NCBI GenBank assembly: GCA_963855995.1
Contig: OY979716.1
Coordinates: 92,945,369-93,009,368 of the forward strand
Reading direction: 5' to 3'
From: Muricea muricata
Lineage: Eukaryota; Cnidaria; Anthozoa; Malacalcyonacea; Plexauridae
DNA length: 64,000 bases
The notes under the pieces: model-generated
Seen by the model: only the letters and a program-made list of their open reading frames with translations
Databases searched by the model: none
What the model was told of the DNA's origin: nothing
Part shown: in pieces, positions 4,172 to 31,300 of the stretch
Position numbering within the stretch: the stretch's first letter is position 1
Layout: each line of letters opens with the position of its first letter
Position numbers and translations under genes: made by a program

Positions 4172-4693
4172 TAGTCTAGGACCTGTCAAGGACTTTGTAT
4201 GCGTTTCATTTACCCCAGATAATCTCAACTGTTTTAGGGTAAGTTAACCATGGCGAACAAGATGGCATATTTGCCCAAACCTGAATCTGGGACGAAACAT
4301 TCGAAAACGAGCACCCGCAGAAATAACCCTCTCGTTAGGACTACAAATTCTGAATCAATAGAGATACATTTGTTTTAAAGCTTTTATGGTGTTCAGAGTG
4401 GTCACTTTAGGGGTGGTAGTTAGGAAGCAAAAAACCCCTAGCTTTAATATATTCCAAGAATATGGCTATACCTTATCAGGGGAAAATTGCTGAATATGCA
4501 TAATTTAAGTTACAAGATTGGCAAAGTGGATTATTTATATTTTTTCCGAAAATTTTTTCGCTGCTGGCAAACTTCACACTTGTTTAAACATAATTCCCAT
4601 ATTCTACATAACAGAGCATGCAAACCTGCCGATATATAGTACCGATAAATTCACTCACCGACGCCATTTTGCGAATTCGGCCGTGTGTTCCAG
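4172..4693. repeat. Left inverted arm of P-like transposon
   Basis: The outer part is TTAGTCTAGGACCTG followed by a conserved block containing AACTGTTTTAGGGTAA. The inner end is the CATTTTGCGAATTCGGCC region near 4668-4682. Its reverse complement lies at 8454-8870. Open frames here (4518-4998) also occur in the other arm and are not treated as genes. Confidence 0.8.
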
Positions 4694-5974
4694 CCATAGA
4701 AATAATAGATATAGAATGCGTACTCCTAGCATTTCTCAGTCGAAATTTTGTCTCCACAAAATGGCGGATTTCGAAGGGCATTTCAACTAGTTCCAATCTT
4801 CTGTGTCAAGGAATTTCACGCGGTCAAGAGCTCGTTGCACGAGGAGCGGAGATCAAATTGATGGACTTTAGAGCTTTAACTCCTGTTTTTTTGCCGGATT
4901 TGTATTACCGTATACAATTTGCAGCTTTAACTTTTCTACCTATCATGGCAATAATGAATGCTTCATTGCTGTGGCCTCTTTTGGAGTTTTGGTACTAATA
5001 TTTGAAGTGGAACTATCAACTATTTAAGTATTTATATGTCCGTAATATAAACGAACTGATTTTGTTTTGAACATCATTATGAAAGGGAATTTCCATACGT
5101 GCATTTCCACGCTAAGACAACAATCATACAGAGTTTGGTAAAATGGATTATCCGGACTAAATAGACTGGAGTGGAAGGACAGGTGTTGTGACAGCAGGTA
5201 CAATAATTTTTTTGCCATTAATATTCTACAGCAACTGTAGTAAATGACTCACCTGATTTGTCTGACAAGAAATTGTTTTTAATCCGGCGTTTTAAATCAT
5301 TTTAATTCTTTTGAAAATAATAGCGGAATTTGAGAACAAGATGTAAACTACATATAACATTGTCAACATGATTTTTTATTTATTTCATTTTTTACAAATT
5401 CATGAAATATACAGAAAAGGCAATCGAACTTTGGAGGATTGTAGTCAGAACAGAGTACACTTAACATAAACATTGCCATTCATCTTGTGAGTGATTGACT
5501 TAAATCTTGTGAATGATTGGCTTAAATCTAAATATAAATCATTGACTTGAAAATATGTAGATATGAATGTTATGTTCTATTTATTGTTTTTGTGTTTTAA
5601 TCATTTGATAGCAAATTCCCATTCCAAAGTTGGATTACTTGTGTTTAATACACAGTGTTATATTTAATACACAGTGTTGATAATTTATTTACAATTGAAC
5701 ATTATAATTATACATTATTGCAATTAATATTATAAACACAATCTAGCATTTAATTTAAATTTAAGCTGCAGCAATGTTCTCTGGTGTTTGGATGTTATTT
5801 CCCACATCCAGGGCACCATTCCCTAACCAATAGTGCAAATGTTATGCACTTCTTGGGGACCAGGTTAGTTAACCGCCGCCCGGCACTCGGCGTTGTAGTG
5901 CTACCCAGTGTAGCCCAGGATGTTCGAGAACATTGAATGCAGTGTTATTTCTTTAATAATCTTTATCAAACAAA
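4694..5974. other. Non-coding 3' flank of the transposase inside the P-like element
   Basis: AT-rich sequence between the left arm and the end of the transposase reading frame. I see no gene and no strong hairpins. Confidence 0.4.
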
Positions 5975-7989
5975 TTACTCATTCTGGAACAAAATTTGCT
6001 TAGTTAATATATGCCTTTTTGAAGCTTTGTTTTCTTTGATAATTCTTTCTGTGTAAACTCTTCCAAACTGGTAGCAGAAGAGGTCTAAATAACTTTTTAC
6101 AATAAGTCTAATAAGATCAGTAATATGATCATCCCTCATGTATTCATCAAGTAAATGACTTTGTCGAGAGTGTTCAAATAACTCATTGAAGGTGCTTGAT
6201 TTGGTTTCTTGAAGCACATCAGAAAATATTTTATCTGCCTTCTTTTTCTTTAGTGACGTCCAGCAGGTTAACTGTTTTCTTGCAAATGTGTCAGTTGAAG
6301 TGATAACTCTAACAACTGAAGGTGATGGAACAGACAGTTTGCCATATTGTTTACAAGCTAAAAGGGAAAAGGCATCTGGAACTTGATTGATTTCTTCAGA
6401 TGGTTGGAATAATGCTGTTGCACATTCACAGCATTTCATCTTCTTGCATAACTTTTTTGCAACATAACCAGATATGTAAAAGAGGACATCAGGTCGCCAA
6501 GTAGTGGAAGTATCCAGCATATATGAAACTTTCTTGTCTTCTTTATCTATTGCAGTTGTATCAGGTACTACATCATCATCTTTATTTTCCACTGGAACAC
6601 AATTTGCTGTGGAAGAGCTTTCTATTTTGTTTGCTAATAGTAATGATCGTAGTGCATATTTAAATTGTAATGCATTAGGGTTGTTATTCCAGCCTAAACG
6701 CCCTCTGATTTTGCTGAAAAACATCTCCAATTTATCTTGGGAAAATTTGTACGTTAATACAAACTCGTAGGGACTGTTAGACCTTTGCAAAAGGTCCTTT
6801 GCAATGGCTAGTAAGGACTTTGCTGAAATTGCAAATCCTCGAATAAACGTTTTTCTTGGACCACTGACAATTTTCAGTCCGCGTTTTCATCAGTCAGAGA
6901 TGTTAAAGTTTTTATACCATTTGTTAAATAGCTTGAGATTTCTTCATAATTTTTTGTAGTTATTGGTGCTTTAAAATGCTTGCCAAACTTGCTTTTTGAG
7001 TTTAGTATGTCAAAAAGATTATTAATTAGCACGATAAATTCACATGTGGCATTGCTGTCTTTGAAATTGGGATTACCATTCTTTCTTAAAAATGTTATTG
7101 CAGATGCCACAGATGCACTCAATGTTTGGGCAGCAACAGCAACATTCATTTTGTGTTTTTGCCATTGTACATGCTTTGTTTTGAGTTTATTTGCAATGTG
7201 CAAAATGTCCTGCTGTTGAATGTCATACAGAGCTTTTATATACTCCCATGAGATTGTGTCCCCTGTGGGTGTCACAAAATATTTCATGTCTCCTAAAGCA
7301 TTTCTAGCTAACTTGAGCATATGGCAAATGTCTAAAACTATGTAGACTTTTAAATCTGGTCTGCAAGGATGGGGAAACGAGCCTTCCAAATTATCAATAT
7401 TGCAGCCGAGTTTTCGGGCAGTTGCTACGTTTTTTGTTGGGCCATCAAAAGTTAGCGACTTAACTATTATGTTTTCATTATATAAAAGGATTATAGCTTT
7501 CTTTATGATTTGTGCTTGAATTTGGCTGCTTGTTTTGTTGGTTAAAAAGTATGCTATTGGCTTTTGCCAAGGTGATTTAAGGCCAACTGCCATAACCACT
7601 AAGACATTTGAGGCGATGTTCTCAGCATCTTCGCCTTTTATTTCGCCATAATCAACATTGCCAACAAATTGGGACTTTTTCTTGTCCCATTGCGTATCGC
7701 TGCGGATGGACATTTCGTCCAAAATTAGCGCACATTCTGTCTCTCCACTGAGCTGTAGTTTTGCAGAAAGACTGCTAATAACGTTAGAAAGAAACCCTGG
7801 TTCGCAAACCACATTTCCTGCCCACGATCGAATTGTTGCAGGATGCGGCAAATGAAGTGTTTTACGCACAAATTTGTAGGCCCTAGGGCTGTAAAAATGC
7901 AGAGAAATTGCAAATTCTTTAATATCTTTGCTATATCTGGAACCAGTTTTAAGACTTTTGTTGCTAAATTCGTTTTTGAACAATTCCAT
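5975..7989 (-). pseudogene. P-element/THAP9-like transposase, frameshifted
   Basis: Two minus-strand reading frames cover the transposase core. The first (7989-6874, 371 codons) holds the RNase H-like catalytic start (CALILDEMSIR), the second acidic region (SLTFDGPTKN) and the CHMLKLARNALGD segment with the long insertion typical of P-element transposases. The second (6790-5975) continues with LTYKFSQDKLEMFFSKIRGR and a GWNNNPNALQFKYALR block, then a Cys-containing tail (CCECATAL). Between them, near 6880, the frame changes by one base; the sequence linking them continues the alignment in the new frame. No THAP zinc finger is visible upstream. A possible 3' splice site (AACATTCAG) precedes the first methionine near 7997, so the amino-terminal exons may be lost or unrecognised. 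Cut-and-paste function is known for the family; this copy looks inactive. Confidence 0.85.
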
Positions 7990-8453
7990 CCTGAATGTTT
8001 ACTTCTTTTTAACCGTCGATCGTGAAAATGTACAACCCTCCTGTCATCAAGTTCGCGTGTTCGTTTCGTGCAGTTCGTGTGTGTTTGGAAATTGGCGAAC
8101 GGTTGCCCCATGATGGAATTTCTTCGGAGTGGTTTACATCAAAACCTGCGAGTTGAATTGTTTAATTTTTGCTTTCAAAGTTTATCACAGTACCGTTTGT
8201 TTGTGTGCTACAGTTAAAACTCGTGTGAAGTGTGTTACATGCTATATTTCGAGAAGACAAATGACATGACCCAAAGTTGAAGCTATAATTCGCCAAAACA
8301 ACACTTCGACAACATCGAAGATTTCAAAGTCACCGAAGCAAGGGAATTCGTTCAAAGCCATTAAGGATATTCTTCTAATAATACCTAGTAAAAATAATGG
8401 CATTTTGCGGATCATAAAAGCAAAGTTCGACGGTGAAAAGCGAAGGAATCTGC

Positions 8454-8870
8454 AACACACGGCCGAATTCGCAAAATGGCGTCGGTGAGTGAATTTATCG
8501 GTACTATATATCGGCAGGTTTGCATGCTCTGTTATGTAGAATACGAGAATTATGTTTAAACAAGTGTGAAGTTTGACAACAGCGAAAAAATTTTCGGAAA
8601 AAATATAAATAATCCACTTTGCCAATGTTGTAACTTAAATTATGCATATTCAGCAATTTTCCCCTAATAAGGTATGGCCATATTCTTGGAATATATTAAA
8701 GCTAGAGATTTTTTGCTTCCTAACTACCACCCCTAAAGTGACCACTCTGAACACCATAAAAGCTTTAAAACAAATGTATCTCTAATGATTCAGAAATTGT
8801 AGTCCTAACGAAAGGGTTATTTCTGCGAGTGCTCATTTTCGGACGTTTCGTTCCGGATTCAGGTTTGGGC
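8454..8870. repeat. Right inverted arm of P-like transposon, outer end lost
   Basis: Reverse complement of the left arm (about 4274-4693), including the block around CTAACTACCACCCCTAAAG. It ends at CAGGTTTGGGC. The sequence beyond does not match the outermost ~100 bp of the left arm. Confidence 0.8.
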
Positions 8871-9334
8871 CAGTGAACTCAATAAAGACTGGAACAATAC
8901 CTTCAGGTAAATAGCCTTATCTTTAGGTGAAACCAAGATGGCGGAAATTGAAGGCCGTCTTGTTGGTATAAAACACGCGTGTTTTTTGCGTGGGGTAATC
9001 ACCAGACAAGAAAGCATGGCGACTATGGCGCGTTTCTCAATCGAAGCATCCTGTCTAAAGACCCAAAAATTTGTACTTTTGGTTTGAATTTACACGATTT
9101 TTATGGTATTTTTAAAAGAACTTGTGACTGAGAAGGGGTTTATTTTGTATAATAATAGTGGATCAAACGGATATTAAACTTATTCTACGAGGATTTTGAA
9201 TGTGGTTAAACCTGGGTCAATAAACACATTCGAACGTCGTTGAACAGCAAAGAATGCATTTGTTTTAAATAAACAATCAACGAAATATAAGATAAGTATT
9301 GTATTATTTTAACATCCTTTACAAACTTGGATAA
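8871..9334. other. Unassigned junction between two P-like transposon copies
   Basis: No gene seen. The stretch lies between the truncated end of the first transposon and the end of the second transposase, so it may hold the terminus of the second copy. I could not identify its inverted partner. Confidence 0.3.
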
Positions 9335-11985
9335 CTATTGATTTCTAAACAAAATTAATTTGTTCAACTGGTGCCTGGCACTGGGCATTCCGGTATGTAC
9401 AACTGTCTCGCTAAAATGTTTCCCGCACGTAAAGAGACGCATGGTAAAGTATTTATCCGATGTCCATTTTATAAGTTTTATTTGATGCTCCTTTTCCTCC
9501 ATGTTCGCGTTTAAACCCATCTCATGGTCTTCAAATACAGAATTGTTGACACTTAAAAGAAAATGATTGCAAACTTCGAGTATCATCTTGGTTTTTAGGT
9601 TTTTCGCGTTGCTGATTCCGTTTTGGCAAACATATTGTTTGAAGATGTGTTCACACTGTTCAATGGTAGTAAAAACTGACTTTGATGGTATACGCAATCC
9701 ACCGTTGTTCACAAATAGCGTGAATGCAGCAGCTGTTGAAGCTTCATTGTATGCAGACTGTCCACAGTAATCGTGATCTGATTCTGCTCTGTTAATACTG
9801 CCAACAAGACAATCTATGCATGCTTGGCAGGTGGGTTTCTTTACGAGTTTCGACACAATGAACCCACCAATATAAAATAGAATGTTCGAAATAAAGTCAT
9901 GCAGAGTGAATGCCCCAGTCCAAATGTTCGAACATTAAACTCTCTTCTGCCTCTTCCAGGGAATTGTTTGCATCGGCATTCTCATCCTTGTCCTCTTCTA
10001 AAGACATTCCACTTAATGGTGACTGGTGCTTGTTACTGTGGAAAATTGGAATGATAGAATAGTCAGCAAAATCTGTACAGTTTGCATTTTTTGATGCAGT
10101 GATAGCATTCTTCATCATCATTTGGCGCAGGGCATACTTGAACTGCAAGCAGTTAGGATTGTTGTTCCATCCGCCTCGAGATCGAATGCAGGAGAACAAA
10201 AGTTCCAGGTGATCTTGTGAATATTAGTAAGTTAAGAGGTATTTAAAAGGGTCATTAGGTATAAGGAACATTTGATTTGCCATTTCGATGGTTGATTTGA
10301 TGGTGGTTACTAAACCAATGATAAAGGTCTTCCGTCTGTGAGTTGCTACAGTTTTGAGGTCAAGTTTATCTTTAAAGAGAGTAAATATTTTGCTGTGGAC
10401 TGCAGCTTATCTTCATACATAACCTTGTTTGTTGAACGTAGGGGCTGTTTGTATCCTTTTCCCGCAGGGTTTCTCGAATTTAGCATGTCGAAAAGCTGAT
10501 CAATTGTTCTTACAAATTTAAGTGTTCCACTGCTATTTTGAAATTTTCGATTTTTCATGCCAACATCTAAAAACTCTATCGCATCAGCCACAGATGAGCT
10601 GAGTGCCGCAAGTCTTACATTCATCTTGTGCCTTTCAAACTTGATGTGGTTGAATGAAAGCTTGTTTGCCATCTTTAAACCCTCTTCCTGTTGAAGCATA
10701 TGGATTTGTTGGAAATAATGCCATTGTATTTTTTGACCATCTTCATCAGTAATGGTACCAAGGAATGCCAATGCATTCCTTGCCAATTTCAGCATGTGGC
10801 TTGGATCTGCAATGAAAAACACGTCTTCTCCTGCAGTTGGATGTTAGAATTTTGTCTGAAAGGTATCATATGTGGTACCAAACTGACATCCTAGTAGCTC
10901 AAAAGTACTCAAGTTTACTGATGTTCCGTCTGCAGTTACAGACCACACCTTTAAACCAGCATCAGCTGCCATTTCCAGAGGTGTCTTAATCAATTGTGCT
11001 TGAGTTGTTGATTCAATTTTAGCAGTTAGAAAGTAGCCAACAGGGCACTTCCAATGGCTTCTTGTCCCAACAAGAAGAAAAACGTGTGCTTCTGATGCTA
11101 AGGTGTCTGGGTCATCAAGAACAGGGCCACCCTTGCCATAGTCTACAAAACCAACATATCGATCATTCTTTGGCTCCCATACTGTTTGCTTTCTAATAGA
11201 CATTGCATCTATTATTAAGCAACAGTCCCTTTTAATGGCTTCTTTCCTGACCTCGCTTTCCAATGCAGTAAAAGCTTCTTTGGAAAAGCGTGGTTCATAG
11301 TTGATAGAGGATAACCGTTTTCGAAGCAATGAAGGATGAGGCTGAGGAATTATTGATCTCACATATTTGTAGGCCTTAGCCGAATAAAAGTAGAGTGTTA
11401 GTGCAAACTCTTTTACTTGATCATCATATCTTCTTGCTGATGGTGCACTCGTTACATTGTTCTTGGTATTTTGGAAAAGGGTGAACTGTAGGTTGTCAAA
11501 TTCTGCGTGTAGTATCCTGCTTGCTCGGAACTGATAACTAATTTTTCCTGTTAGTGGGAAATCAAATTTGCCATATTCTCTAACTTTTTCTTTGATCGTC
11601 TTAGCTTCTGTTGCAAGTTCTTAATTTTTTGTCTCAATTTTTGCTGCAAATCTGGCTTCTCTTCCGGCTTTTCCTCTTCGTCAGTTAACTCTTCTTGCCA
11701 TTCATCTTCAGGTTGTTTTCTTGCGTAGTTGTGCTCAAGGAAGATCTTTTTTGCTGGTGACATGTCATCTGGGTCATCAGGGGGAAGTGGGTGTTTCCTT
11801 GGAATCCCTAACCTGTTTCTTTCTTCATTTGAAAGACGCATTGCATTAGGTTGCTCCAATGTTGAAAATACTGATGGAATTGCATGTTTTTGTAACCTAC
11901 AGGTCTTACCAGAAGATGGTAGGATAATATGATCATGGTGTTCAAAATAGTGACTACAAATGAAGCTGAAGCTTTGTTTTTTACC
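9335..11985 (-). pseudogene. THAP-domain P-element-like transposase, heavily decayed
   Basis: Reading on the minus strand, the THAP end comes first (about 11985-11860: ICSHYFEHH, then LQKHAIPSVF). It is followed by an acidic/basic coiled-coil linker with repeated QQKLR (11859-11551). Next come the RNase H-like segment (CCLIIDAMSIR, SVTADGTSVN; about 11540-10844), the SHMLKLARNAL block (10822-10346), the GGWNNNPNCLQFKYALR block (10199-9897) and a Cys-rich tail (CQACIDCL; 9890-9335). Its breaks are frameshifts near 11,553, 10,375 and 9,905 and in-frame stops near 10,845 and 10,230. The final residues (LNKLILFRNQ) match those of the first copy (LTKQILFQNE), so the two are relatives. The THAP C-x2-H position reads CSHY, a possible loss of the zinc ligand. 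Confidence 0.85.
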
Positions 11986-12200
11986 ATTTATGGGAACTTT
12001 GTTTTAAATCTCGCGTGTGCAAAATTAAATTGCGTGTACAAATAATTTTATAATTTAAAAATGTTTTCAATAAAAAATTGAAATGGCAAAGCCGCATTGG
12101 AGTCTTATTGTTTTGAGTGAAAAAATAAATCTGTTATTTACCGGCAGCGTCGGTCCGGATGGGGAAAACTGTGCCCTTGCTCTTGAAAACGGCTCTCGTT

Positions 12201-12381
12201 GTTGAAAACAGGATTAAACAATGTTGTGCTGCCCATACTGTTCAATGTTATCAACAATATTGTTCAGCATTGTTACACCTGATTGCAGGCTGGATTCAGC
12301 CTCAACAACTTGTTCAGTATTGTTGACAACATTGAACAATGTGGACAGCACAACATTGTTAAGTTCAATCCTGTTTTCAAC
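12201..12381. repeat. Foldback element with GTTGAAAACAGGATT ends
   Basis: It starts GTTGAAAACAGGATT and ends with the near-inverse AATCCTGTTTTCAAC. The arms of about 75 bp are full of AACAATGTTG-type words. The same words recur at 57.8 kb and 62 kb. Confidence 0.8.
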
Positions 12382-13359
12382 TACCTTCAGCAACTCGTAA
12401 TTTTTACGCGTCTAGATGCACGTTTGCGTTCAGCGGTCAACCTTCGTGCGCCCGCGATATATCAAGCCCGCGATCAGTTGTAATTTTCAGAGTAGTTTTA
12501 TTTTTTCGAACAAGTCTTATTTTCGAACAACACTTATTTTGGAACAAGTCTTATTTTCGAATAAGTCCTTTTTTTTGGAAATATTTAATTTTTGCAGCAT
12601 GTGCTTTCTTGTCTTTCGAAAATTGTTGTGCGTGTATGTTTACAAGTGTGATTTTTCCAAACAAGTCTTGCTTTTTGCACGAAGTATTTTTGTCCCGTCT
12701 GGCGCGCCATACAAGTGTTCCTTGTTGCACGTACACACGAGCAAGTTTCGTTGTTGAAAAGCTGGTACGACTGGCAGGCTCCTTGTTAAGGAAAAATTAC
12801 GCACGAGTAAATAAAACTTGTCGAGGAAAACTTGTACGGGACTTAAGACTGCAAGTACACAGCTAAAACAATAAAAAAAACAAGATTTATGAAAAGCGCC
12901 ATGTAAAATATACCAGACCTATTCCCACTCCCCTTTATACAATATACAGTTAATACTCAAAAGTTTAAATACATCTTTTACCTGTAATCTGCTTAGTCAA
13001 CTACACCAATCAATTTCGGGACTTTGATATTGTATGCATGTAGTCATGTACTACTACTACTTAAATTGCAAGTGTGCAAATGTGCAAAGATTTTAGAGGA
13101 TGCAAGTCAGATTTTTAACAATGAAAGTATCACTAAGGATATGTTATCACTCAAAGCATAAAACTGGATTCCACACTTTCAAACGTTTGAGCGGGTATAC
13201 TATATGTGCCTACAAAAAGCGACCCCTTCCGTAACCTTAGCTAGCTTCTTTGATGACCTATCCCCATAATTCAAATACTCGCTTTCGTAAAATTCATGTT
13301 GCTCCGAGTGCATGTAGAAAGATATTTTCTCATTTTCTTTCTTTTCATTGATCATAACG

Positions 13360-13560
13360 ACAGGCTGTTTCAAGTTGTTAACAGACGTCGTGCAATAAGA
13401 TTATTAAAACTTATTATCCACAGGTTTGCTGCAAGTTGCTTCAAGAAGTTTTAACACGTCTGTAAATGACAGGTTGCAACAAGTCTGATTTTGTTACAAC
13501 TTATGAAAATGACAAGTTTGTTGCAACTTGTTGACAAATTGTAAGAAGCTGGTAAATTGT
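13360..13560. repeat. Cluster of CAAGTTGC/GCAACTTG short palindromes
   Basis: Several imperfect inverted words such as GTTGCAACAAGT and TTGCAACTTGTTGACA occur close together just upstream of the TRAF start. The architecture resembles the other palindrome clusters of this window. Confidence 0.5.
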
Positions 13561-13636
13561 AGAAATGCACTGATTACGCGCACGAGAAATAGCCGATTAA
13601 TGTTGCCAATCAACATATTTCACCATTTGTCGTTCA

Positions 13637-13648
13637 TTTTTGTTTTAG
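13637..13648 (+). promoter_or_regulatory. Possible 3' splice site in the TRAF 5' UTR
   Basis: TTTTTGTTTTAG ends at 13648, 13 bases before the TRAF start codon. A pyrimidine-rich AG this close suggests that an untranslated first exon lies further upstream, so the promoter need not be adjacent to the ATG. Confidence 0.45.
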
Positions 13649-13661
13649 TTGAAGAACTAAC

Positions 13662-14029
13662 ATGAGTCGACAGTATCGCCAGTTAGCAAGCGACATCGCT
13701 GAAATGGAGAACGGAGAAAACGAAGCTTATGTAGCTCCAAGTGCTGAGAGAAGTGGTTCTCAGTCCAGTATATTAGCAAATCCACAATCCTCAGGCCCAG
13801 ATGATAGTGGCGAACGTGCTCAAGCCAACCGCCCAAATAGTCAGAGCAGTATTGAAGCAAGTCCGAATACTGCAAGAAGCAGTGAGAGGATTGATGGTTT
13901 CGACGAGATTTTTGATCCAGCAGTGAGCGGTGATTATGAATGTCCTGTGTGTATGCTGGTACTGCGTAATCCTGTTCAAACGCAATGTGGTCATCGTTTT
14001 TGTGCAGCTTGTATAAAGCGACACATCGA
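13662..14029 (+). CDS. TRAF exon 1: amino-terminal tail and most of the RING
   Basis: The start ATG at 13662 follows AACTAAC and is the first in frame. Residues 1-90 are polar and probably disordered, with two SQSSI repeats (33-37 and 60-64). The RING begins at YECPVCMLV (92-100) and continues through CGHRFCAACIKRH. The donor is CGA|GTAAGT at 14030, phase 2. Without splicing the frame stops two bases later. Confidence 0.92.
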
Positions 14030-16303
14030 GTAAGTTTATGACGACAATACAGAGTAGTTTGTGCTGTTAGTATTATTACCCTGGTGGATTCCAGTTTACA
14101 TATTGATTGTTTAAAGAGTAAAGAAAATTAGCAAGTATATAATACCGGAGCCGAGCCGGAGCTGAAAAACCGAATTTTTCACAGCCCTACAGTATAAAGT
14201 GTTTTTTCCCTTGACAGAACGAATGCTCAAACATGTCCAATTGATAATCAAGAGTTAAAGCAAGAAGAGGTATATATTATTAAGCAACAAAATTCGCGTT
14301 AGTACGAGAGGATTTCACGACAATGACTTCTTACTCTAGTTTGTGTTTTCACCATTTAGTGCAAAATAGCCTTGAAATTTCGGAAAACACCGTGTACGTT
14401 TGATCTCTATCAAAATTAATTTTTATTTGAAACTAAATAGATTTTTTAGATCTAGTCTCCTTTTCGGGATGTTCGTCTGTTTTAAGCAAGCAAATTAAAG
14501 GCAAAACTGATGCCATCTATACTTGCGCATTCAAAACTAAAATTGCTAGACAAAGAATATCTTTGAAAACAGTTAGGAAAACGTCGGTAATATTTTAACG
14601 ACAGTACATTACTCTAATTTTTGTTTAAGTTTGAATAATTTAATCTTTTTGTTTTAGTTTAGAAAACATTTCTGATTTGATAAAACTGTTTTTAGTAGTA
14701 TTTAGTATGCGTGTAAGTAAGGTCCTTAAAAGCTATTTAGATGCACGTTCCAAAGCAGAACGTAATTATATAACTGCAGCAAGGGGCAACTTGGAAACTA
14801 GAACTCCTTGAGGGCTCATTTCGATAGAATGTTAATTTTGTTTGCTAGATCAAAGATTTTTTAACATAGAATATTTAATAAGTTTGATATATTCATTTGT
14901 TTAGTTCGTGAAAGAAGTTGACTGAAACCAACGGACTGCCCGCCATCTGATATTGCTTTCCTAATATTGCCTAATTTACTAACTATTTTGTTTTCTCATA
15001 TGTGGGATTAAAGACAATAAAAGACCTTGTTAAATTTGGTTTCTATTTAACTTCGAAAATCAAAGTCAAAACTTGGATTTAGGCATTTAAATTACATTGT
15101 ATTATGTTTTCATTCTATTTCGTTTATAAAGTTGCAGTTTTAACAATTCCACATTAATCGGCCCACTCAATAATCATATCTTGCATGAATTTCATTTTCT
15201 TTTTTAAAATGCCCCAATAATTTTTCCTAACATTAGTGGGGATATAACGTGACATCTTTCATGGTCCAATTATAGATATACGCAGATAATTTTGCCAAAC
15301 GAGAGATAAGTCAATTCAAGGTGAAATGCCGTACTTTGAAGAACAAAAAGGATTGTCCATGGACTGGAACCTTGCAAAGTATCGAGGTAAATAAAGATTA
15401 GTCCAAAATTGAGGAGACATTGTTCGTCACCCAGTACGAATTTCATATGTACGTATTTCTATGCTAGTTGCGTATTTTTTTTATTATGTGGCAAGTGTTT
15501 TTGAGCCGCCCATCCACCAAAATAGATCATTTTGATTGGTTCCTGAGTGGTAGGAAACCAACGGTGTGGACCGCTGTCGTTTGACAGAAATTTTGGGGTT
15601 TGAATCTTTGAGAAATCTTTTTGTATTTTTTTTAAAGAAAATTTTTGTTTTTAAAACGGACTAAAGTATAAAATATCTGAATGTGAGGAGGCACGAATGC
15701 TTCTTATCACTTAATTAAGAAACCACTATGACACACACACAATGTTGTGGGAGAAGGGTTGATGGGGAAAATGCTCTAATTCTTATATAATTATAAACTG
15801 CGGTCAAATTGCCCCTCCCCACAGACTCACAATTATGATTATGCATTATGGTTATGATATAATTATGTCCTCAGGGGGTAATAGGTCCCCCATGTTGGAC
15901 CTTGCCCAAGGGGTAGTAGCTCCCCGAGATGGGCACTCTCAATGTCCAAGGGGTAGTAGATCCCCGTGATGGTCATTGTTTACTTAAATGTCCAAGGGGT
16001 AGTAGATCCCCGTGATGGTCATTGTTTACTTAAATGTCCAAGGGGTAGTAGATCCCCGTGATGGTCATTGTTTACTTTAATGTCCAAGGGGTAGTAGATC
16101 CCCGTGATGGTCATTGTTTACTTTACAATACATTGGTTTGTGTGAGTCTATGGCGTTAAGGGTGACCTTTGGGAGCACTACATCCCCACAAATGCGCAGC
16201 ATGCGCATTCCCCATAAACGAAAAACCATCCCCCGGAACGTTGGACCAGATTTTTGGTTGTTTTTTTTTTTTTGTTAAAATTGCAATAATAATAATAATA
16301 ATA

Positions 16304-16345
<42 letters not shown>

Positions 16346-19300: not shown

Positions 19301-22300
19301 TGTTTTTGTCTGTTGGAGAACGGTTGGCAAGTGATATCTGTTACTATGTGAATTTCTTTATACTGGGATCCTTATAAGTAAAATTAAGAACATGTTTACA
19401 ATTCATGGTGAGAACTTTGAAACCAGCTAATCTCAAGAGGCGACAAGTGCAACACAATATGTTTACTCGCCTCCAGAGATCACTGCAAAAACCCCATTGA
19501 GTTTCTCGAAATCTAGTGCAGCGCACCGATCTAGAGGGTGGTCGGGTCTGACGAGCCAAGTTACCACCCTTAGAGTGGCGATATTCTGTTCAGAGAAACA
19601 GTTACATTGGAGATTTCTCACATACAGAGTGAAATTAAACGTTTAAGTGACGTAATTAGGAAACAAGGAGAAGAGTTTGTTCAACTCAGAGAAGAAAACA
19701 AGTTTTTGCGTGGAGTCTGCACGACCCATATTATGTCAGAAAATTTAAATTCAGTTGCATTGTATAATGTCAATTCCTCCGTAAACTCTGATGCAGAAAC
19801 TGCATTTATTCAGCTATTAATGAAAAGGCTACTAAAAGCCTGATGACAAGCTAGCATCTGAATTTTTTTTTGGTGTCAGGAGACAACGAATACATACTAG
19901 GCGTTATTTTATCAGTGGAATTGCTGATGTTAAAAAAGAAGAGATCTTCTGTTTTTTAAATAAAAAAGGAATTACACCTTCATTAATTAACCTCTTCCAA
20001 AGCAACTCAGTCAGCAAAAAATAAGCGTGCATGCAAGAACGAAAGCCTAAAAATGTACAGAAAACTTATTATACCCAAGAAAGAGAGAAATTCTCAACAT
20101 GCGTGTAAAGGCGGAAAGTTCACAATTATAAACGAATTCGACACTACCAGTAATGGGAGATTTTCAGCACGTGTATAATGGCTCAAACAATCCAAGTACG
20201 AATTTCATTTCAAGTGCGTCAAAGTTATCGTAGAGGGTTCCCCTCGGTAGCTGGGAACTGCAGTAATTTGATTAGAGTTCACAGAACTTAACCAGTCAAA
20301 AATAAACACATGTTACCTAATATTTTGTTTTTAAATGCGAGATCTATTCTTTTCATGGTGCTCGAAACTCTGCTTTCTAAAAAAATTCCAGATGAAGCAT
20401 TGCATTTTCCAGGAATTCCGGGTTTCAGTGCAATAAGGAACGGTAGGGTGAACAAAAGAGGTGGTGGTGTGGCTGTCTTCATAAACGACACAATTCCGTT
20501 TAAAATATGTGGCGATTTTTATTAGTTCAGACTATGAATGTCTATGGATGATTTTACGTCCAAAACGTTTACATAAATCAATTTCAAAAATTGCAATGCC
20601 ATGGGTTTATCTTCCTCCAGCGTTAAATTTCTAAAAATGGAGGCCTTTTTTATTATTTTTGTAATTGACACACTCGCAAGCAATCGCCCAAACATACCCA
20701 TTGTTGCTGATTTTAATTCTGCAAGAGATGGTTTTTAGGAAAAGATAATCACCGACTACTGACAATTAATGCAATTAGTTAGATAATCTACAAGAGGCTC
20801 AGCGACCCTCGACCTTGTTTTAAGTAACTTTTACACACTTTATAATAAACCAAATGTGCTCGCCCCTCCCGGTAGCTCAGACTATTACATTATTGACTGG
20901 AGTGAAAGAGAAGAGTAAAACAAGGAAAATCATTACGCGCTAATAAGAGATTCCAATCTTCAAATATTTTAGGAGCTCATTATAGTCGGCAAACCTAGTC
21001 AATGTTATACGATTCTTCATGTGTAACACACCATAGTATGGTGGGTGCCATTTTAAACGTCACGTCGGAGATGATCGATATCATCTTTCCTCTGAAAACC
21101 TTTAAAGTGCATGAGGATGATAAACTGTTTATCTCCGGCAGGCTTAAGAATTGGTTTCTAAAGAGATAGCATGGTCAGGTACAAACTATTGCGCAATAAA
21201 ATTGTATCAGAGCAAACGAAAGAACCCGAAAGAGATCGCTACTAGTATGAACGACTTTTTTTACCAACCTTACCAATGATTTTCTAAAAGTAAGAAGCGA
21301 ATTGTTGAATGTTGGAGTAGATAGTTACCTACGTGAAAAAATTGAGCAGTCTTAAAGTGAATGACCCCAACACGAGGATTATTAATTTTTTGCAAAATAG
21401 TTGCATGTCCGGCAACACACATGTTTAATGAGTCCTTCGCTCGTCAGATTTTCCCTGTTATTTCTGAAGGTGTCTAAAGTAGGTGCTGTGCCAAAAAGCA
21501 AACTATGTTGTTCATTGAATCTACTGAGGCCGATTACACTAACATGTACCTTGTCCAAGATTCGTACACTACCGAGGTTGTTAGGGACAATATAAATGAA
21601 TTTCCAGTTTGGTGGCTCACCCTGTACATCCACTGTTCAAGCCTTAATTTTCTTAATGCATAAATGGCATTCGGCGTAACACACTCCGGGAAAGTAATTA
21701 GAATCGAAGGCATTTGATCTAGTCCATCATAATAAGCTTCTGGAAACTTTTACTAACATTGGTGTTCGGCCAGCGTTGGTGGGATGGCTTGCGTCTTATC
21801 TCCAAGGAAGTTCGCAGTGTACGTCATTTTAGGGTGAACAATCCAGCGTGCTTTAGGTGAAGGGCGATGTCCCACCAAGGTAGCAGGGAGAATGTAAAGA
21901 AATGCTAATTGACCTTCGCAGAAATAAAACTGAATTACCACCAATTTATCTTGGTGAAAATCAAATATCTCGAGTTCATCCGTACAAATTGTTAGGAATG
22001 TGGTTAGATGATGATCTGATATGGACTACAAATACTAAGTACATATTGTAAAGAAAGTCTACAAAACGTCTTCATCTATTAAAGATTTTAACGCGCTACG
22101 GTGGACCTGAGAGTGATCAATCAGTGTTCTCCTGCACGGTAATTCGTTCGGTGTTGGAGTATTGATCGCAGATTTCGAGTGCATGGTGGCTTGACGTAAC
22201 TACAGAAGAAAATATAGAAAGAATCTAAAAGAGGGCAATCCGAATAATTTATCCCGGCCGAGATGAGCACCACGCAGTACTAACTCATGCAACTTGCTGT

Positions 22301-25300
22301 CATTGGGAGAACACCGGAATAATTTGTGTGCATCCTTGATTGAGGATATGCTAGATTTATCGCATAGACTTCATGGACTATCGCCAAAGAGAATTAATGA
22401 AATAAAAGAAAAGCAGAAAATTAGAAATAGGAGAAAATTAAATTTATAACTTTTTTTCTAAAACTGAACGATTTAGAAACAGTCCCCTTTAATTCATGCT
22501 ATTCGCGAGTACAATTTTAAATTAGATAAATAAGTATTTTAGTCTATACATAATTGCACGACTGCTTGTGTGTTTATTGATGTAAATAATCTTATTAATG
22601 TTCTCAAATTAGTCTCTTTCATATAGCCTTTAACGTAATAACTTTTGAAATTGTAAACACGTTGAATTTAGCTCACTCAGCTACTGAACATGTATTAATA
22701 AACCCACTTTTTTATTTATAAATGCTCATTTCAAATACACTGTAGTGTTATGAGTTGCTACAAGACAAGATAAGTCAGTGATAAGTGGGTCCTCAATTAA
22801 TGACTAATGACTAATCAATTGTGTCATCTTGCAAAACGACGACCTCATACACAGATATATCAAGATAAATAATTTATGCTTTGCGTGCCCACTTACCCTG
22901 TGATCACGGTAAAAAAGTTCAATCTTTTTCTAGGGACATTTAAAAACATGCGAGTTTGTTGAAGTACCATGCCCTAAAGGTTGCAACCAAAATGTGGACA
23001 GAAATGCTTTGGATAATCATTTGAAGAAAGAGTGTGCAAAAAGAACAGTAACCTGCACACATTGCCAAACTGAAGTGCAGCACAAGAATTACAAGGTATA
23101 TGTGGAAAGAAATGTTTTTATCGATGATGTTGTCAAGGGTAGGGATAAAATGCAGAAAGATCAACGAATACATTGTGATTTAGAGACAGTCTGTCGTGTA
23201 CTTTAATTATACTACGGCTAATTTAAGGAAACTAAAAAAGTAGATCAGGGGGTAAAGCACTGAAGATATTTTGCCTGGTCGTTACAAAAGGTTGACTGTC
23301 TTAGATCACTTCAGTTGCTGTTTTAATACTAAGCCGTATCAGACCTCATTAAGCACCACTATACTATAGCAAAAAAGTAGGAAACTCCAAATAGTTCACC
23401 AGCTTTTTCAAGTTTCACGCCGACTTGATCTCATTGCACAAGTGTGCATTTAGAAGTTAGCCTACGTGCCTACGATGTTTGATCGAAATTCCTGCTATTT
23501 CGAATATAGTAAAAGGTAAACGGATTAATAAAGCTCATGACTATGGTATCCCGTTGGTATGGTAGGAACAATTGTGGTACGACCACTAATTATCGACAAG
23601 TAAGATGTGTACTACAAAATGTTTAACTCGTACAATTTCTTTTAAGAGGAAATGCCCTTATTGCTGATCTTCTGTGCAGCATATAAGAAGTTCGGCAAAA
23701 GCCGATCAACGTATTTGTTTGACAGAATAACTTAGCATTAATTTTTGTATTAAAAGATCTTGAGCTCGCTATAGTAAATGTAATCTAAACTTGCATTTCC
23801 TTTATTTTGAGCGGAATTAACTTCTAGAACCTTTTGTATGTTTTAGGATCACTTAGGAAAATGCCAGAAGGTGTCTGTTTCTTGCCCCAATTGTAATAAG
23901 AAGATGCTCGGAGAAAAGGTATTTACCATGACGTGCTTCCGGTATGAGCTAGATCGTCAGATATATGATTTGTCTTTTTACGAGAGTTTTATGCATCTCA
24001 AAATAGCCCAGCTTTGTAGATTTGATATTAACCATTAAATGTTTCATCTAAGAGCTTGTAAATGCTTAGCCTCCTACGCAGACTGTAGTGTTTTCTCCTA
24101 AAGCTCACTTGGGGGAGTTAAAACGACAGCAAATTCCGACTGCATGCAATGGAGTCTAGTAAATGCTGTGATCCTAAATATTAGTATATATTTTTACAAG
24201 AAAATCTGAAATCATTATGTTACAGTTCAGGCTGAGAAAATAGGGCGAAAAGGAGGCTTGTATGTTTTATGATGGGAATTTGGCTAGAAAACACACGCGA
24301 AACTTGATTAATAAAAACGCGCAGCACTTGATGTAATACACAATAAATTCGATATAAAAAATGGAGCGTGACAAAATATTTTGGTGTAAAAATATAACAG
24401 TTAATATAAATGTAGAACAAGAGTTTCTTGATTATAGAATAACGACATTTAACATAAGACACGAACAACTTAATTGATGTTAAAATTCCTTACTTCTTAT
24501 TTTGTCATGTTTGGCCTAGCATACAATACTTAACTTTTAATAACACAGAGCAGTGTCTACACGTACAGCATCTTTAACGTCAGTGTCTCAATTCAATTCA
24601 AAACTCGCATCTTCGGAGTTCGAATCCTGCTCGAGACGACGAATTTTTCGTTGTTCTCTGCAGTGTCAGATTAATATGAATCTAGTTTTCACGTCTCTAA
24701 AGATGGTTCTGAAATAGAATTGAAACACTGCGCGTCCTCAAAGACCAGCGTTAAGTCCTCACGGAAATATTTCGTGCATTTAAAATGAGTAAGACTCGCT
24801 ACCAATCCCACTTGACTCTATAGCTTAATGGGTGGAGCGGTGGTCTAGAAAGCCGAAGATGCGAGTTCGAGTCCCCCTTGAGGCTACGAATTTTTCGTTG
24901 TTCTCTGCAGTGTCAGATTAATTTGAATCTAGTTTAACGTCAGCCATTACCTATTTCAACGTTCACAATGGGTACACGTCAACAAATCGTACTGATTGTT
25001 AGGAACATCTTGACGTTTTTCTTCCTCATGCAAGTGGTCAATGCAATGGAATTTCCTCATGGAAATGGCCATGCATGTTTTAAGATAGATGTTGATTTAG
25101 CAGGTCAAATTGAAACATCATTTAGAAATTCGATTTCTTATTGTAAAATATTTTGACTGGCTGGGAAGAAACTGCACTGAACTGCACTGGGCTCATTCGT
25201 TCCTCAAATACTTTTCAAAATTTTGAGTTTTAACACAACGCCTTTGCTTTTCAAAGGGATTGTTTTGATTCTCGGGGGAATTATTTACTTCCCAAAACAC

Positions 25301-28300
25301 GAAAGAAATAGAAGACAGAATGTAAAGAAATGCACGAGAGTAACATGATTTGATTTTTATTATTTAATATGGCATATAAAAACTCATATATAATTCGTAA
25401 GTAAAATCGGAAAGAAATACATCTTTATTCTGCATCCTTATATATTGATAAGGAAACAATTTTCAAAGCCTTTTACATTTATATGATTTTATATGAGTTT
25501 ATTTTCGAAGTTGCTTAAAAAATCATCTCCGTTCTGTATAAGTGTATCGAGATAATCATGCAGAGCACTTGACGTATCTCTATACATAGGTAACTCACAG
25601 CCTGCACTGATTTATCAAACATTACACAATTCCTATTTTATGATGAATAGAACAGTCTTACATCGAATAGCCGTGAATAGAAAACCATAATATGTTTTTT
25701 TCGTCACAGTGAAACTGTATGACTTTCAGAAAACTTTCTGAATAAATTTGTTAATCATTCTAGCATGATAAAAATGCGGCGAACATTATAAAGGATATAT
25801 GTTTGTAACAGTACACACGAAAAAGTAACCTTCATTTTTCCAGGCCGAATTTATGTACCATTGAGTTACTGAACATGAGTGTCGCTTTGAACACATTATA
25901 ATGCCTCCTATTATTGTGGATGTAAATTTTGCACTATCTCAATAAAAAATTTAAAAATGAAAAGTGTCTAGGAAATGGGTTGTTTGTTGCATGCGCATCT
26001 AACATGGCATTGACATTGTTTTACTGTAGGTTTATCGTGTAAAAACGATGATAAGCCATATTACTGAGTTCATGACAGATGATATAACGACAGTTACTCT
26101 CATAAGTTCTTTTTCTCAACTTTCATTATGACCCCCTCCCCCTGTATAATTTTTCCAATTGTCAATAAACTAATTCCTATTATGCAAATTTGCTCTAGTT
26201 AATCGCTGGACATGAAAAGGATTGCCCAAAAGCACAAACTGTTTGTGACTTTAGGCAGTATGGATGCAAATGGACGGTATGCCTATACCTTGATTTTACT
26301 TCCGAATATACACCGCAGTAAAATGCAAGTCTTGTTTTTATCATGATGAGCTCACAATAATATTATACACCCCCTGTTTAGTTTTTTTTTATTTACGTCC
26401 ACTCAATAAGTGTTCCTTGCCATTATGGCCTTACGAAATTTCTGTGCAAGATACATACCACAGATTTTGACCTTCCCAACAAGAATATCTCGACCTTTTA
26501 TTTTATTTTTTGTCCAGTACTTTGTGAATTGGCATTCAAAAAAGTTAGTAAAGCTGCCGATATGTACAAACACTTGCCACCTCGCTAGAAGTTGGACTAT
26601 GCAAAAGGCCAATATTTTTTATTCTTGTTTTACAATAAATTAAATAAACGGCTTTTTACTGCTATAGAGTATTCGAGCCCAACTCCAAAACCACCTCTCC
26701 GACGAAGCTAGCATAAGGGCACATCTATCCATGATAGGCGGATCTCTAACACCGCTAATTCCTGCCAACGGGCAAAAGAACAAAGGAAGTGCATTAAAAC
26801 CTGAAGCTAGAGTTGGTGGCAACGGTAGAGGAGGAAATGGTGCTTCGAGTGGAAATGCCCTTGACGAGTTAAGCCGTCAAAGAAACCGAAATGCAGAAAG
26901 CATTACCACTTTGGAAGCCAAGGTTGAACAAATGGAACGAAAATATCGCGATCTGATAGGTGAGTGCGTTAGATGTGATGGTGGACCTTCCGAGTATTTG
27001 TTCTGAGAGCAGTAGCGAAACCAGCTGGATAATTTGGTCACGTTATGCAAATATTTCCGTCTTTATAGCCATGGGAACGACCAATTTCTAAAGAAATGAA
27101 TAGTAAATATGATTTAAAACACGTATTTTTCGAGTGGCATTCATGTAATGGGAGACTAGGTGACTATTTCTCATGAGGAAACAAAATAAATAAATGTCAT
27201 TCAGAATATGCCTATTTGTATACGGCTTTCTGCTTTTCTTTGGTCACGCGGCTGCAACCGGACAGGCAATGAATTCAGATACATGCCACAGTTTCACCTT
27301 CCCAACAAGAATATCTCGGCATTTTACGTTAGTTTTAGTCCAGTAATTTGTGAATTGGCATTCAATTTATAATACTTATACCGACTATCTCGAGTTAAAA
27401 CTTCTACTATCTTGTACATGACTTTTAAGAAGCTTAATAAGAAGCGTTAAAATATATTGAAGTTTTATCGCCGGTTCCGTTGCTACCTCGTAACTAAGGA
27501 AAACTAAAATTCACCAATCCGGGACGAATGTGACTGAAAGCCGTACACGAGGTAATAAACCTCCTCTTCACGTGTTTCATTTTCGCCTCATTTTCTCTCA
27601 GTACTTGAGCTCTAATTTTTCATCAGACTTTTTATCAAAATTGGAAAGAATCTTTGCATTTCACTGGCAGAAATATATCGCGTTTCTTATATATCTGTCT
27701 AGGTCGTACTGAAAGGCAGCACAGAGAAAATGATGAAAGTATATCTGCTTTGAAGAAGTCGGTTGTCGAATTGGAAGCGCGTATGTGCAACGGTGTATAC
27801 TTGTGGAGGATCAATGATTACTCCCGTCATCTTGACAGAGCACGTGATAATACCGTGACAGAGCTAGACAGTCCACCATTTTACACCAATTTCTATGGTT
27901 ATAAGCTTTGCCTCAGGTATGCTTACTTGAATCCTGTCAATGTATAATAAACTAGGCTAATCGAGGCTCGTTTAAAAGGCCGGTTTTCGGAAACTACAGT
28001 AATATACTGCTAGTACTAACAACGTTTGAAAAATGTGAGGAAATGGCAGATTTTCTAGTATCATAACTACTGAATACAGATGTATTACTTTATATTTAGT
28101 CTAAGACCTGTATAGGAGTTTGTATGCATTTCATTTGCCACAAGTAATCTCAACTGTTTTAGGGTAAAATGACCATGCCGGTCAACATGGCATATGTGCC
28201 AAAACCTGAATCCGGGGCGAAAGTCCTCAAAATGACCCCGCCTTGAAACGGCAGTGTCGACATAGCTCTAACCTCAGACCAATGCGAGCAACAGCATTTC

Positions 28301-31300
28301 TGAAGTGCCTATAGTGTTTAGAAGAGTTGCTTATAGGGGTGGTTATTACAAGCAAAACATTGCCTAACTATAATACTTTCCAAGAAAACCACCACTCAAC
28401 ATGCTAGGTCAGCAGCTAATTATGCATAAAATCGCTGGCAGAAATTAAATTTTCATATTTCCTAAAAAAAATTATTATAACATGAAAAACCATGTTCGAT
28501 TGTATCCAATTCTTGCAGATTTCAATAGGATTGTAATTATCTTGTTGATATACAAGGCACTGTATTTCACTTACCCCCGCAAAAACACGATTTTAGCCAT
28601 ATTTTCCGTCTTGTTCGCTTTTTTATCGCCGAGTAGCCGAAGTCTCATACAATTCTTGTACTTTTCCGTAATCACAGATGACTAAAGAACAATTCAGCCC
28701 AGTTTCGACTTGTTCTGAGACTGTGCCATCTACTTTATCTCCGATTTGGCATCCTCGACAATTAGCCAAAATTGCCGCCATTACGAACTGTTGCCGCTTT
28801 TCTGTCCGATAAATGTGGCTTCTTCGTCTTTGTGTGTATTTATACTATGTAATCCAACAGTACTTTATACTATTGAATTTCTGAAGGTCATTTTGTTAAA
28901 TATGATCAAATTTCAATATAAAAATCCACCCACATAAAATCGAGTCTCTTCGAGCTTCAAAATAATTTGAAAGTCACGCGCCATCGTCACGAAAATTCCT
29001 CGTGGGCGACCATACCGGGGGGAGTGAATATTTTCACGAATGCGTTTGCATGTTTATATTTGCGTATTATTTTGTTTTTAAGCTTTAACTATGCGTTTAT
29101 TTTGAGGGCTATGCCAGTGCAGATACGTACGTTTAAATTTTAAAATCTTAGTGGGCTAATAGTGGCTTTTATTGGCTTAGACGCTTAGTTATTTTATACT
29201 TTGGCATAATAAAAATCGCCCTTTAAATAAAAATGGGGAAATGCGTAAGAATATCTGTCTGATTTTCTTTTACTTGAAGCTTGAAAACAAAACAATACGC
29301 AAATATACCTGAACATAGAATAATATGAAATGTTTACTTGGCTTGCTTTGGATGCTTTGGAAACAAGCAAACGTATTCGTGAAAATATTCACTCCCCCCG
29401 GTATGGTCGCCCACGAGGAATTTTCGTGACGATTGCACGTGACTTTCAAATTATTTTGAAGCTCGAAGAGACTTGATTTTATGTGGGTGGATTTTTATAT
29501 TGAAAATTGATAGAAGTTTACAAAATTACCTTTAGAAATTCAATAGTATAAAGTACTGTTGGATTACTTAATATAAATACACATAAAGACGAAGAAGTCA
29601 CATTTATCGAACACAAAAGCGGCAAGACTTCATAATGGCGGCAATTTTGGCTAATTGTCGAGGATGCAAAATCGAGGATAAAGTAGACAGCACAGTCTCA
29701 GAACAAGTCGAAAATGGGATGAGTTGTTCATTTGTCATCTGTGATTATGGGAAAGTACAAAAATTGTGTGAGACTTCGGCTACTCGGCGATAAAAAAGCG
29801 AACAAGACGGAAAATATGGCTGAAATCGTGTTTTTGCGCGGGGTAAGTGAAATACAATGTCTTGTATATCAACAAAATAGTGTCAATCCTTTTGAAATCT
29901 GTAAGAATTTGATTTAATTGAACATGGTTTTTCATGTTATAGTAATTTTTTTCAGGAATTATGAAAATTTAATTTCTGCCAGCAATTTTAGTGATTTTAT
30001 GCATAATTAGCTGCTGACCTGGCATGTTGAGTGGTGATTTTCTTGGAATATATTATAGTTATGCAATGTTTTGCTTCTAATAACCACCCCTATAAACAAC
30101 CCTTCTAAACATTACAGGGACTTCAGAAAGGCCATTGCTCGCATTGGTCTGAGGTTAGAGTTATGTCGACACTGCAGTTTCAAGGCGGGGTCATTTTGAG
30201 GACTTTCACCCCGGATATGGGTTTTGGCACATATGCCATGTTGACCGGCATGGTCATTTTACCCTAAAACAGTTGAGATTACTTGTGGCAAATGAAATGC
30301 ATACAAACTCCTATACAGGTCCTAGACTAATTACCATGATATTATTCTTTGACCTCTAAACAATAATAATTGCAGGCTTTGGAGCTCATATTTGCAATTT
30401 TCGCATTTTTCATGTGTACTTAGCCACCCTAAAGTTGACGAATTTGAACGTTGAGAACTGCGACCACTGCTCGCGTTTCACTACCATCTCTTATTTGTAC
30501 AAGTAATCATGCATGGCGAGTACAATAGTACGAGTGAAGGTTGGAAATTTTGTGAAAATTGGACGAGCCGCGGGGGCGATTCCGATTTTGCAAAATTTCT
30601 AGAGATCACGAGTACTACTAATCCCAAATTGTACGAGCAACATCACATGATTATTTGTTTATTACTAGCATGACAAAATTACATCCACCACGCACCTCAG
30701 CGTAAAACATTTGTAGTACTTTCTCAAGCTTTTCAGGGGGATAATTCTCGATTTCAGCGTCATACTGTCTCACCAAACCCAGTCTTGCCATACTTTTAAC
30801 GAGTATTTCTTGCTTTTGGTTGTATTTTCGTTGTTTGCTTTTGCTTTTAATGCCTCTAGGTCAACTGAATTTGTATGCAAATACCTTTCCGCGATTTTGG
30901 TTGTTTTAGGAAAATCATTAATTAATTGTATTGCCATACAATTAATGAAATAATTGTACTCTTCTCAACCAATCAGCATCCAGTAATTTTTGTCATGCTA
31001 ATAATAATCTTAATAATGTAATAAAAATAAAATCCATTCGATTAATTACAATCGCTGGGCAAGAAAAGTAGTTACTCATTAAGGATTACAGCACTCTTGG
31101 AGTGCATTATCGGGATTTACAAGCACTCTTGGAGTGCATTATCGGGATTTACAAGCACGAGTTCACGAACAAGAAGCAAGAAATTTAACACTGTGTTAAA
31201 TTTCGAGTTTCTTGTTCGTGAACGAGTGCTTGTAAACCGATAATGCACGAACAAAAAGTGCTGAAAACGTTTTAATATTCAATTTGAGTAAACGTTAAAA

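Follow-up and report, generated by a model that had tools for sequence, protein, structure and literature searches.

E1, a THAP9-type transposon of the P superfamily, and E2, a transposase-free palindrome with arms homologous to those of E1, lie ∼19 kb apart in a 64-kb window of Muricea muricata contig OY979716.1. The window is the whole 64,000-nucleotide stretch of DNA analyzed, and all positions refer to it. E1 (4171-8870) is probably a damaged copy of a cut-and-paste element, and E2 (28096-30330) probably a non-autonomous, diverged relative that consists of two promoter-side halves placed head to head. This interpretation is based on the domain content and catalytic residues of E1, on the homology of the arms and, for the inner part of the E2 arms, on a statistically established resemblance at ∼51% identity. 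The P superfamily is already known, as are non-autonomous and long-armed members of it; what E2 is made of is the added result.

Transposase and Arms of E1

The transposase of E1 is encoded on the minus strand between inverted arms and is split into two overlapping frames, 7998-6874 and 6886-5975, with a frame change near 6880. The 5′ frame (6874..7998) contains a helix-turn-helix domain, the N-terminal part of the RNase H domain, and the GTP-binding insertion (PF12017, E 1.3e-18; PF21787, E 1.7e-42; PF21788, E 2.9e-46). The 3′ frame (5975..6886) contains the end of the RNase H domain with the catalytic glutamate, followed by THAP9_C (PF21789, E 1.7e-16; PF22824, E 6.4e-7). All five Pfam models scored above cut-off, in agreement with the P-element/THAP9-like transposase that an earlier note on this DNA had recognized, and the P-superfamily domain set is complete except for THAP. 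The C terminus of the Drosophila-type 87-kDa transposase (PF12596) scored below cut-off (15.7 versus 22.6 bits).

The only solved structure matched by the E1 frames was that of the Drosophila P transposase (PDB 6p5a), with E values of 4.5e-19 for the 5′ frame and 3.6e-7 for the 3′ frame. In this alignment, D230 and D303 of the Drosophila protein correspond to D94 and D185 of the 5′ frame, and E531 corresponds to E54 of the 3′ frame. D230, D303, and E531 are named as the catalytic residues of the Drosophila enzyme (PMC7776569; this and the other papers cited are drawn on in excerpt).

No THAP domain was detected in E1 by Pfam in the three minus-strand frames of 4000-12999, nor by a whole-domain cysteine pattern in the six frames of 4000-14000, a search that an intron-split or lost domain would escape. 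A looser half-THAP pattern returned 14 stretches around E1, none of them convincing by eye. The sensitivity of these searches can be gauged from TNP2, a decayed P-type transposase adjoining E1, in which both Pfam and the patterns also overlooked a half THAP domain that was read by eye.

Inspection of the arms revealed that 4273-4693 pairs only with 8450-8870, forming an inverted repeat of 421 bp with 19/421 differences (95.5% identity). The left arm (4171..4693, plus strand) extends outward as far as TTAGTCTAGGACCTG at 4171 and constitutes a terminal inverted repeat (TIR) of ∼522 bp with a complete outer end, identified by the inverted repeat, the end motif, and a colinear match to both E2 arms. 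The right arm (8450..8870, minus strand) retains 421 bp and lacks the outer 102 bp, its sequence diverging from that of the left arm at 8870. No convincing copy of these 102 bp was found to the right, the best score being matched by 4/200 shuffles over 8871-9330 and by 47/200 shuffles over 8871-13600. A location for the missing part beyond TNP2 was considered and rejected, as it was not found there. The earlier note had placed E1 at 4172-8870; the region was right, but the shared left end lies one base further out, at 4171, and 8870 is a truncation point rather than the true right end of the element. Nor does the description of E1 as autonomous-type hold. That this copy of E1 is not autonomous is indicated by the shift of reading frame near 6880, by the loss of one end, and by the failure to detect a THAP domain.

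The terminal motif YARNG, as quoted for the P superfamily in PMC2820524, is absent by eye from every candidate E1 boundary (4171, 4172, and 4177-4179). The zebrafish element Pdre2, which ends in CATAC, is also without YARNG, and the motif therefore loses weight more than the transposase domains do.

Structure of E2 and Homology of Its Outer Arms to E1

E2 is, as the earlier note described, a palindrome without a transposase that has its ends in common with E1. Its arms are 973 bp long and 91.4% alike, with two gap openings. Each comprises an outer part (28096..28607 on the plus strand and 29809..30330 on the minus strand), which is homologous to the whole E1 arm, and an inner part (28608..29055 on the plus strand and 29361..29808 on the minus strand), which resembles the promoter-side leader of E1. 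The 305-bp center (29056..29360) is associated with an additional inverted pair of 37 bp, 29055-29091/29271-29307. The arms of about 1 kb mentioned in the earlier note are a property of E2 and not of E1, in which the arm length is ∼0.52 kb.

A tblastn search with the E1 frames revealed no trace of a transposase in E2, matching only E1 and TNP2, and Pfam gave no transposase domain on the plus strand within E2. The longest stop-to-stop frame in E2 does not exceed 78 amino acids. The possibility that the E2 center is a relic of the transposase start was rejected, as comparison with the start of the E1 transposase gave no signal.

Perfect matches to the terminal sequence TTAGTCTARGACCTG are confined in the window to 4171 and 28096 and, in inverted orientation, to 30330; allowing three mismatches or fewer raises the number of matches in 64 kb to 5, against a shuffle mean of 2.55. 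In BLAST alignments, the outer 127-128 bp of the E1 left arm matched the two E2 ends with 84 and 82% identity (E 2e-34 and 1e-30, respectively). Full alignment of the E1 arm (521 bp) gave 353/547 identical columns with the E2 left arm (512 bp) and 363/556 with the E2 right arm (522 bp). The match is colinear over all 522 bp, with ∼65% identity overall, and conservation is highest in the outer 127 bp. Inside position 4297, the score of the E1 arm against each E2 arm was reached by 0/300 shuffles. The arm homology put forward earlier is accordingly real, but its extent of some 350 bp was an underestimate.

When an nhmmer profile of the four arms was searched, only those four places exceeded the inclusion threshold and five weak places (E 0.12 to 8.3) fell below it; as the profile was built from the same four arms, only the absence of further places is informative. 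No relatives were confirmed in viral_contigs (1 pattern-matched stretch in one search and 136 in another) or in genome_contigs (17 and 145), which are viral and bacterial/archaeal collections, respectively, in which few relatives are expected. The end motif matched one viral contig, in which agreement with E2 covered 18 bp with no homology beyond.

Two features of the arms were noted by eye. A splice-donor-like GGTRAGTGAA, read outward, is present at corresponding places in the E1 and E2 arms (8476-8493, its left-arm copy, and 29842-29851), and in E1 it comes after ATGGCGTCG. Downstream of E1, CGTGTTTTTTGCGTGGGGTAA at 8978-8998 resembles CGTGTTTTTGCGCGGGGTAA of the E2 right arm (29827-29846), a resemblance that may be due to chance or may be a relic of the element to which TNP2 itself belonged.

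Origin of the E2 Inner Arms

The E1 leader (8002..8449, minus strand) runs from the right arm to the start of the transposase and is a weak, in-register homologue of the E2 inner arms. The best local paths between the inner arms and the leader start no more than 10 bp from the arm junction and are colinear almost to the end; the pair was therefore tested by anchored end-to-end alignment. Against the reverse complement of 8002-8449, the inner arms gave z scores of 2.9 to 4.4 under three scoring schemes, with at most one shuffle in 200 doing as well. Control alignments with the E1 3′ side and three other stretches gave z scores of at most 1.68. When 3000 shuffles were used, none reached the score of either arm. 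Along the right inner arm, 239/467 columns are identical to the leader (∼51%).

The leader and inner-arm pair had been picked after a first look, so that the shuffle counts are somewhat optimistic, and controls based on random stretches and on register are the better guide. Of 300 random stretches drawn from the window, 34 were removed because they fell within or close to one of the two elements. The true locus scored above all 266 that were used, with a z score of 4.89 against a maximum of 2.32 for the left inner arm and of 3.53 against 3.08, a modest margin, for the right. In a register scan, the signal peaked at offset 0 with the left arm and at offset −10 with the right, and fell off on both sides. 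The z score did not exceed 1.96 in nine registers on the E1 3′ side or 1.89 in seven around the TNP2 leader. Shuffling of the target instead gave z scores of 4.72 and 4.47, and reversed and complemented controls did not exceed 0.95. When the inner arms were divided into thirds, the third nearest the transposase start gave z scores of 4.06 and 3.34.

The resemblance of the inner arms to the leader looks like old homology, and E2 looks like two inverted copies of a TIR together with the promoter-side leader. Because the inner arms are in register with the E1 leader, E2 can be read as the promoter-side half of a related element, duplicated in inverted orientation.

Flanks of E2 and Alternative Interpretations

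Several observations weigh against the interpretation of E1 and E2 given above. Each element is known here from one copy. The middle third of the inner arms gave z scores of 1.18 and 3.25, significant in one arm only, and the first 150 bp taken alone were not significant (z 1.75 and 1.28). Local alignment with the leader provided no proof, as the left inner arm was equalled or bettered by 31/200 shuffles and the right by 2/200; the right inner arm in the wrong orientation was also matched by 2/200 shuffles. An nhmmer search did not establish homology of the inner arms to E1. As the right end of E1 has been lost at 8870, comparison of flanks for a target-site duplication is possible only at E2, and five candidate direct repeats there include no exact repeat of 7-10 bp. 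The remaining points qualify a resemblance of the E1 end to Pdre2 that otherwise speaks for this interpretation; Pdre2 has a 13-bp TIR, a subterminal repeat, and a published spacer of 400 bp (PMC10983969 and PMC7776569). Its TIR, CATACCTGTCAAC, shares the exact 9-mer ACCTGTCAA with E1 at arm offset 10 (5/20000 shuffles within the first 30 bp), and its subterminal repeat, TGTTTAAACCAA, shares the exact 9-mer TGTTTAAAC at offset 410 (140/20000 shuffles over 370-450 and 915/20000 anywhere), but these matches were sought after the fact, in a comparison chosen once the paper was known. E2 retains only the six bases ACCTGT of ACCTGTCAA and is without TGTTTAAAC.

Three of the candidate repeats at E2 lie inside the inverted repeat and have one mismatch each: TAGTCTAA/TAGACTAA, TAGTCTA/TAGACTA, and AGTCTAA/AGACTAA. 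A fourth, TATTACT/TATTATT, also has one mismatch and lies a few bases outside the inverted repeat, off by 3. The fifth, TATTA, is an exact 5-mer that is off by 1 and is the longest without mismatch. The 8-bp duplication predicted earlier to lie outside TTAGTCTA is thus absent at E2, the sole place that allows the test. The flanks may be reconciled with insertion in two ways, either through a chimeric origin, for which Galileo of Drosophila offers a precedent, or through duplication of a palindromic target.

In the first case, the two ends of E2 would come from two insertions, and E2 would be a chimera or rearrangement breakpoint formed by recombination between copies, never having inserted as a unit. 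The absence of exactly matching flanks longer than 5 bp is consistent with such an origin, and chimeric Galileo copies are described, in the excerpts, as having non-matching flanks. Nevertheless, the E2 arms are 91% alike throughout and carry the same inner extension, and no sign of rearrangement is seen in the window, although the window alone gives no test of this. A chimeric origin is considered unlikely.

A different explanation is that E2 resembles the miniature inverted-repeat transposable elements derived from P (P-MITEs) in Anopheles, with P-derived TIR ends around an unrelated palindromic filler and no duplication of the promoter side. Anopheles P-MITEs, one of which is called AgaP8MITE2450, have P-derived ends and a center unrelated to P (PMC1562414, in excerpt), and local alignment and nhmmer by themselves provide no link between the E2 inner arms and E1. 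Against this, anchored alignment ties both inner arms to the E1 leader with register and orientation both correct, beyond the range of the shuffled and random controls. An unrelated filler in the core of E2 was dropped as the leading explanation after the anchored tests and is retained as an alternative, one judged to be improbable.

Duplication of a palindromic target would imply that the first eight bases of the shared ends include a 7-bp target site, TAGWCTA, duplicated at insertion, with the true TIR beginning at RGACCTG. TAGTCTA and TAGACTA do flank E2 as an imperfect direct repeat, and alignment to the Pdre2 TIR places the end inside 4171, at 4178. Galileo, moreover, duplicates 7 bp, with the consensus GTATTAC within a palindromic motif (PMC4168063, in excerpt). 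However, all three ends read TTAGTCTA inward, which is more simply explained as TIR, and a true duplication would give TAGACTA at one end. A palindromic target is judged to be distinctly improbable.

Finally, that the E1 arms and transposase come from different elements joined by nested insertion is very improbable: the right end of E1 is truncated and another P-type gene adjoins it, but the arms bracket the gene in inverted orientation with 95% identity, and motifs like those of Pdre2, itself a P-superfamily element, occur in the E1 arm.

Genomic Surroundings of E1 and E2

TNP2 (9335..12003, minus strand) is interrupted, in its aligned parts, by two in-frame stops and one change of frame and is 38% identical to the E1 transposase over 374 columns (E 4e-76 by tblastn). 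Its start appears, by eye only, to encode the latter half of a THAP domain and, after it, a stretch that resembles a coiled coil; Pfam gave no THAP match. A search for inverted repeats flanking TNP2 yielded only chance-like short pairs. As TNP2 adjoins the truncated right end of E1, the remains of two P-superfamily lineages stand adjacent to one another. Just upstream of TNP2, at 12200-12385, repeats of the TTGTTCAATGTT type abound in a short palindromic stretch that looks MITE-like by eye.

The window is animal DNA with 36.5% G+C and contains a TRAF6-like host gene, delimited by domain matches at 13662..33339 on the plus strand. The gene comprises a RING exon (13662-14030), the nearest solved relatives of which are TRAF6 (E 1e-15), a TRAF zinc finger (zf-TRAF, ∼22937-23092), a first MATH piece with a weak Pfam match (∼27861-27932; 18.2 bits versus a cut-off of 27.4), and the main MATH exon identified by Pfam within 32944-33339, all on the plus strand. 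E2 lies in an intron of this gene, where it separates the two MATH pieces, and E1 is upstream of the earliest coding exon that was located.

Other repeats were also observed. A 46-bp unit is repeated four times in tandem within the TRAF6-like gene (15941-16123, 99% matches). Three copies of a repeat that is possibly a short interspersed element are present at 24616-24689, 24863-24936, and 51875-51948, with 89-97% identity to the first, and open with the tRNA B-box-like sequence GAGTTCGAATCC. A second palindrome, at 58588-59238, has arms of 279 bp that are 98% complementary, with 93 bp between them and ends unlike those of E1 and E2. An inverted repeat, 37542-38792/35323-35757, has arms that are 98% alike and is near frames with weak GIY-YIG matches below cut-off; we take it to be, perhaps, the remains of a Penelope-like element. 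A frame for an OTU-like cysteine protease is present at 40852-41364 on the minus strand (PF02338, E 7.6e-16).

Comparison with Known P-superfamily Elements

The closest parallel in form is Galileo, a Drosophila element of the P superfamily with TIRs of 18 to 1,250 bp, on average 668 bp (PMC3573991). Its longest TIRs are found in transposase-free copies, and their growth has occurred partly by recruitment of adjacent non-TIR sequence (PMC3573991 and PMC4168063). The view that long arms are unusual for the P superfamily is contradicted by these Galileo arms of up to 1.25 kb. Like Galileo, the elements described here combine a P-superfamily transposase with long TIRs, ∼522 bp in E1 and 973 bp in the gene-less E2, with one copy of each; in both systems the TIR ends are more conserved than the remainder, and some Galileo copies likewise have non-matching flanks. 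As Galileo displays the same pattern, long arms do not mark E1 and E2 as strange. There are also differences, in that Galileo makes a 7-bp duplication whereas E2 has no exact one, and some Galileo TIRs contain tandem repeats, none of which are listed in the arms of E1 and E2. The comparison is with the description of Galileo, not its sequence, and E1 is not filed as Galileo.

Pdre2 resembles E1 in its THAP9-type transposase, in terminal ACCTGTCAA and in TGTTTAAAC ∼400 bp inside, and in the existence of deleted non-autonomous copies. By contrast, in place of the continuous 520-bp arm of E1, Pdre2 carries TIRs of 13 bp together with subterminal repeats of 12 bp; it makes an 8-bp duplication, and the sequence common to E1 and E2 begins 7 bp further out. 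Anopheles P-MITEs are likewise non-autonomous and retain P-derived ends of ∼100 bp, but differ in the 27-31-bp TIRs of their masters, in their 8-bp duplications, and in a center unrelated to P (PMC1562414). Izanagi of medaka is, like E2, a non-autonomous P element outside insects that adjoins a gene; it differs in its length of 1,316 bp, 27-bp TIRs, 8-bp duplication, and degenerate THAP exons, and in not being a palindrome (PMC2820524). The Drosophila P element shares the transposase domains and the D-D-E triad with E1 (PDB 6p5a; PMC7776569) and differs in having 31-bp TIRs, a THAP domain, and an 8-bp duplication (PMC7776569).

Non-autonomous partners of P elements outside insects are better documented than the earlier note supposed, both internally deleted Pdre copies in zebrafish (PMC10983969) and Izanagi (PMC2820524) being known. 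No long-armed P-superfamily element outside Drosophila was found among the matches listed in a literature search of titles and abstract openings, with Repbase and most of the subscription literature outside its scope.

Proposed Origin of E1 and E2

These observations can be accommodated by the following scheme. The E1 family, a THAP9-type branch of the P superfamily, has TIRs of ∼520 bp, and E2 would come from a diverged sister lineage. Each E2 arm would consist of the TIR and the leader up to the transposase start, the two being joined head to head, with the transposase gene and the 3′ side having been lost. Neither the E1 nor the E2 copy is likely to be making its own transposase now. It is natural to infer, as the earlier note did, that one enzyme family moved both, and an intact copy at another site may have provided the P-type transposase that recognized the common outer ∼127 bp of E1 and E2. 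The long arms of E2 may have arisen as in Galileo, with the inverted repeat recruiting TIR-adjacent sequence; template switching while the gap left by excision was being repaired is one conceivable route.

A broader proposal, which is speculative and doubtful at present, is that the THAP9/Pdre2-type branch evolved long foldback-like arms independently of Galileo, yielding gene-less palindromes of two inverted promoter-side halves. An intronic palindrome of this kind could be transcribed to an ∼1-kb double-stranded RNA containing the TIR and leader, which could silence the family.

The advance over known P-superfamily biology is incremental. From E1 it would seem that one and the same end can take two forms, either the short terminal and subterminal repeats seen in Pdre2 or an uninterrupted long arm. 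If copies elsewhere agree, long foldback arms would be a feature that recurs within the P superfamily rather than one confined to Galileo, with E2 revealing which half of the element is duplicated as long arms form.

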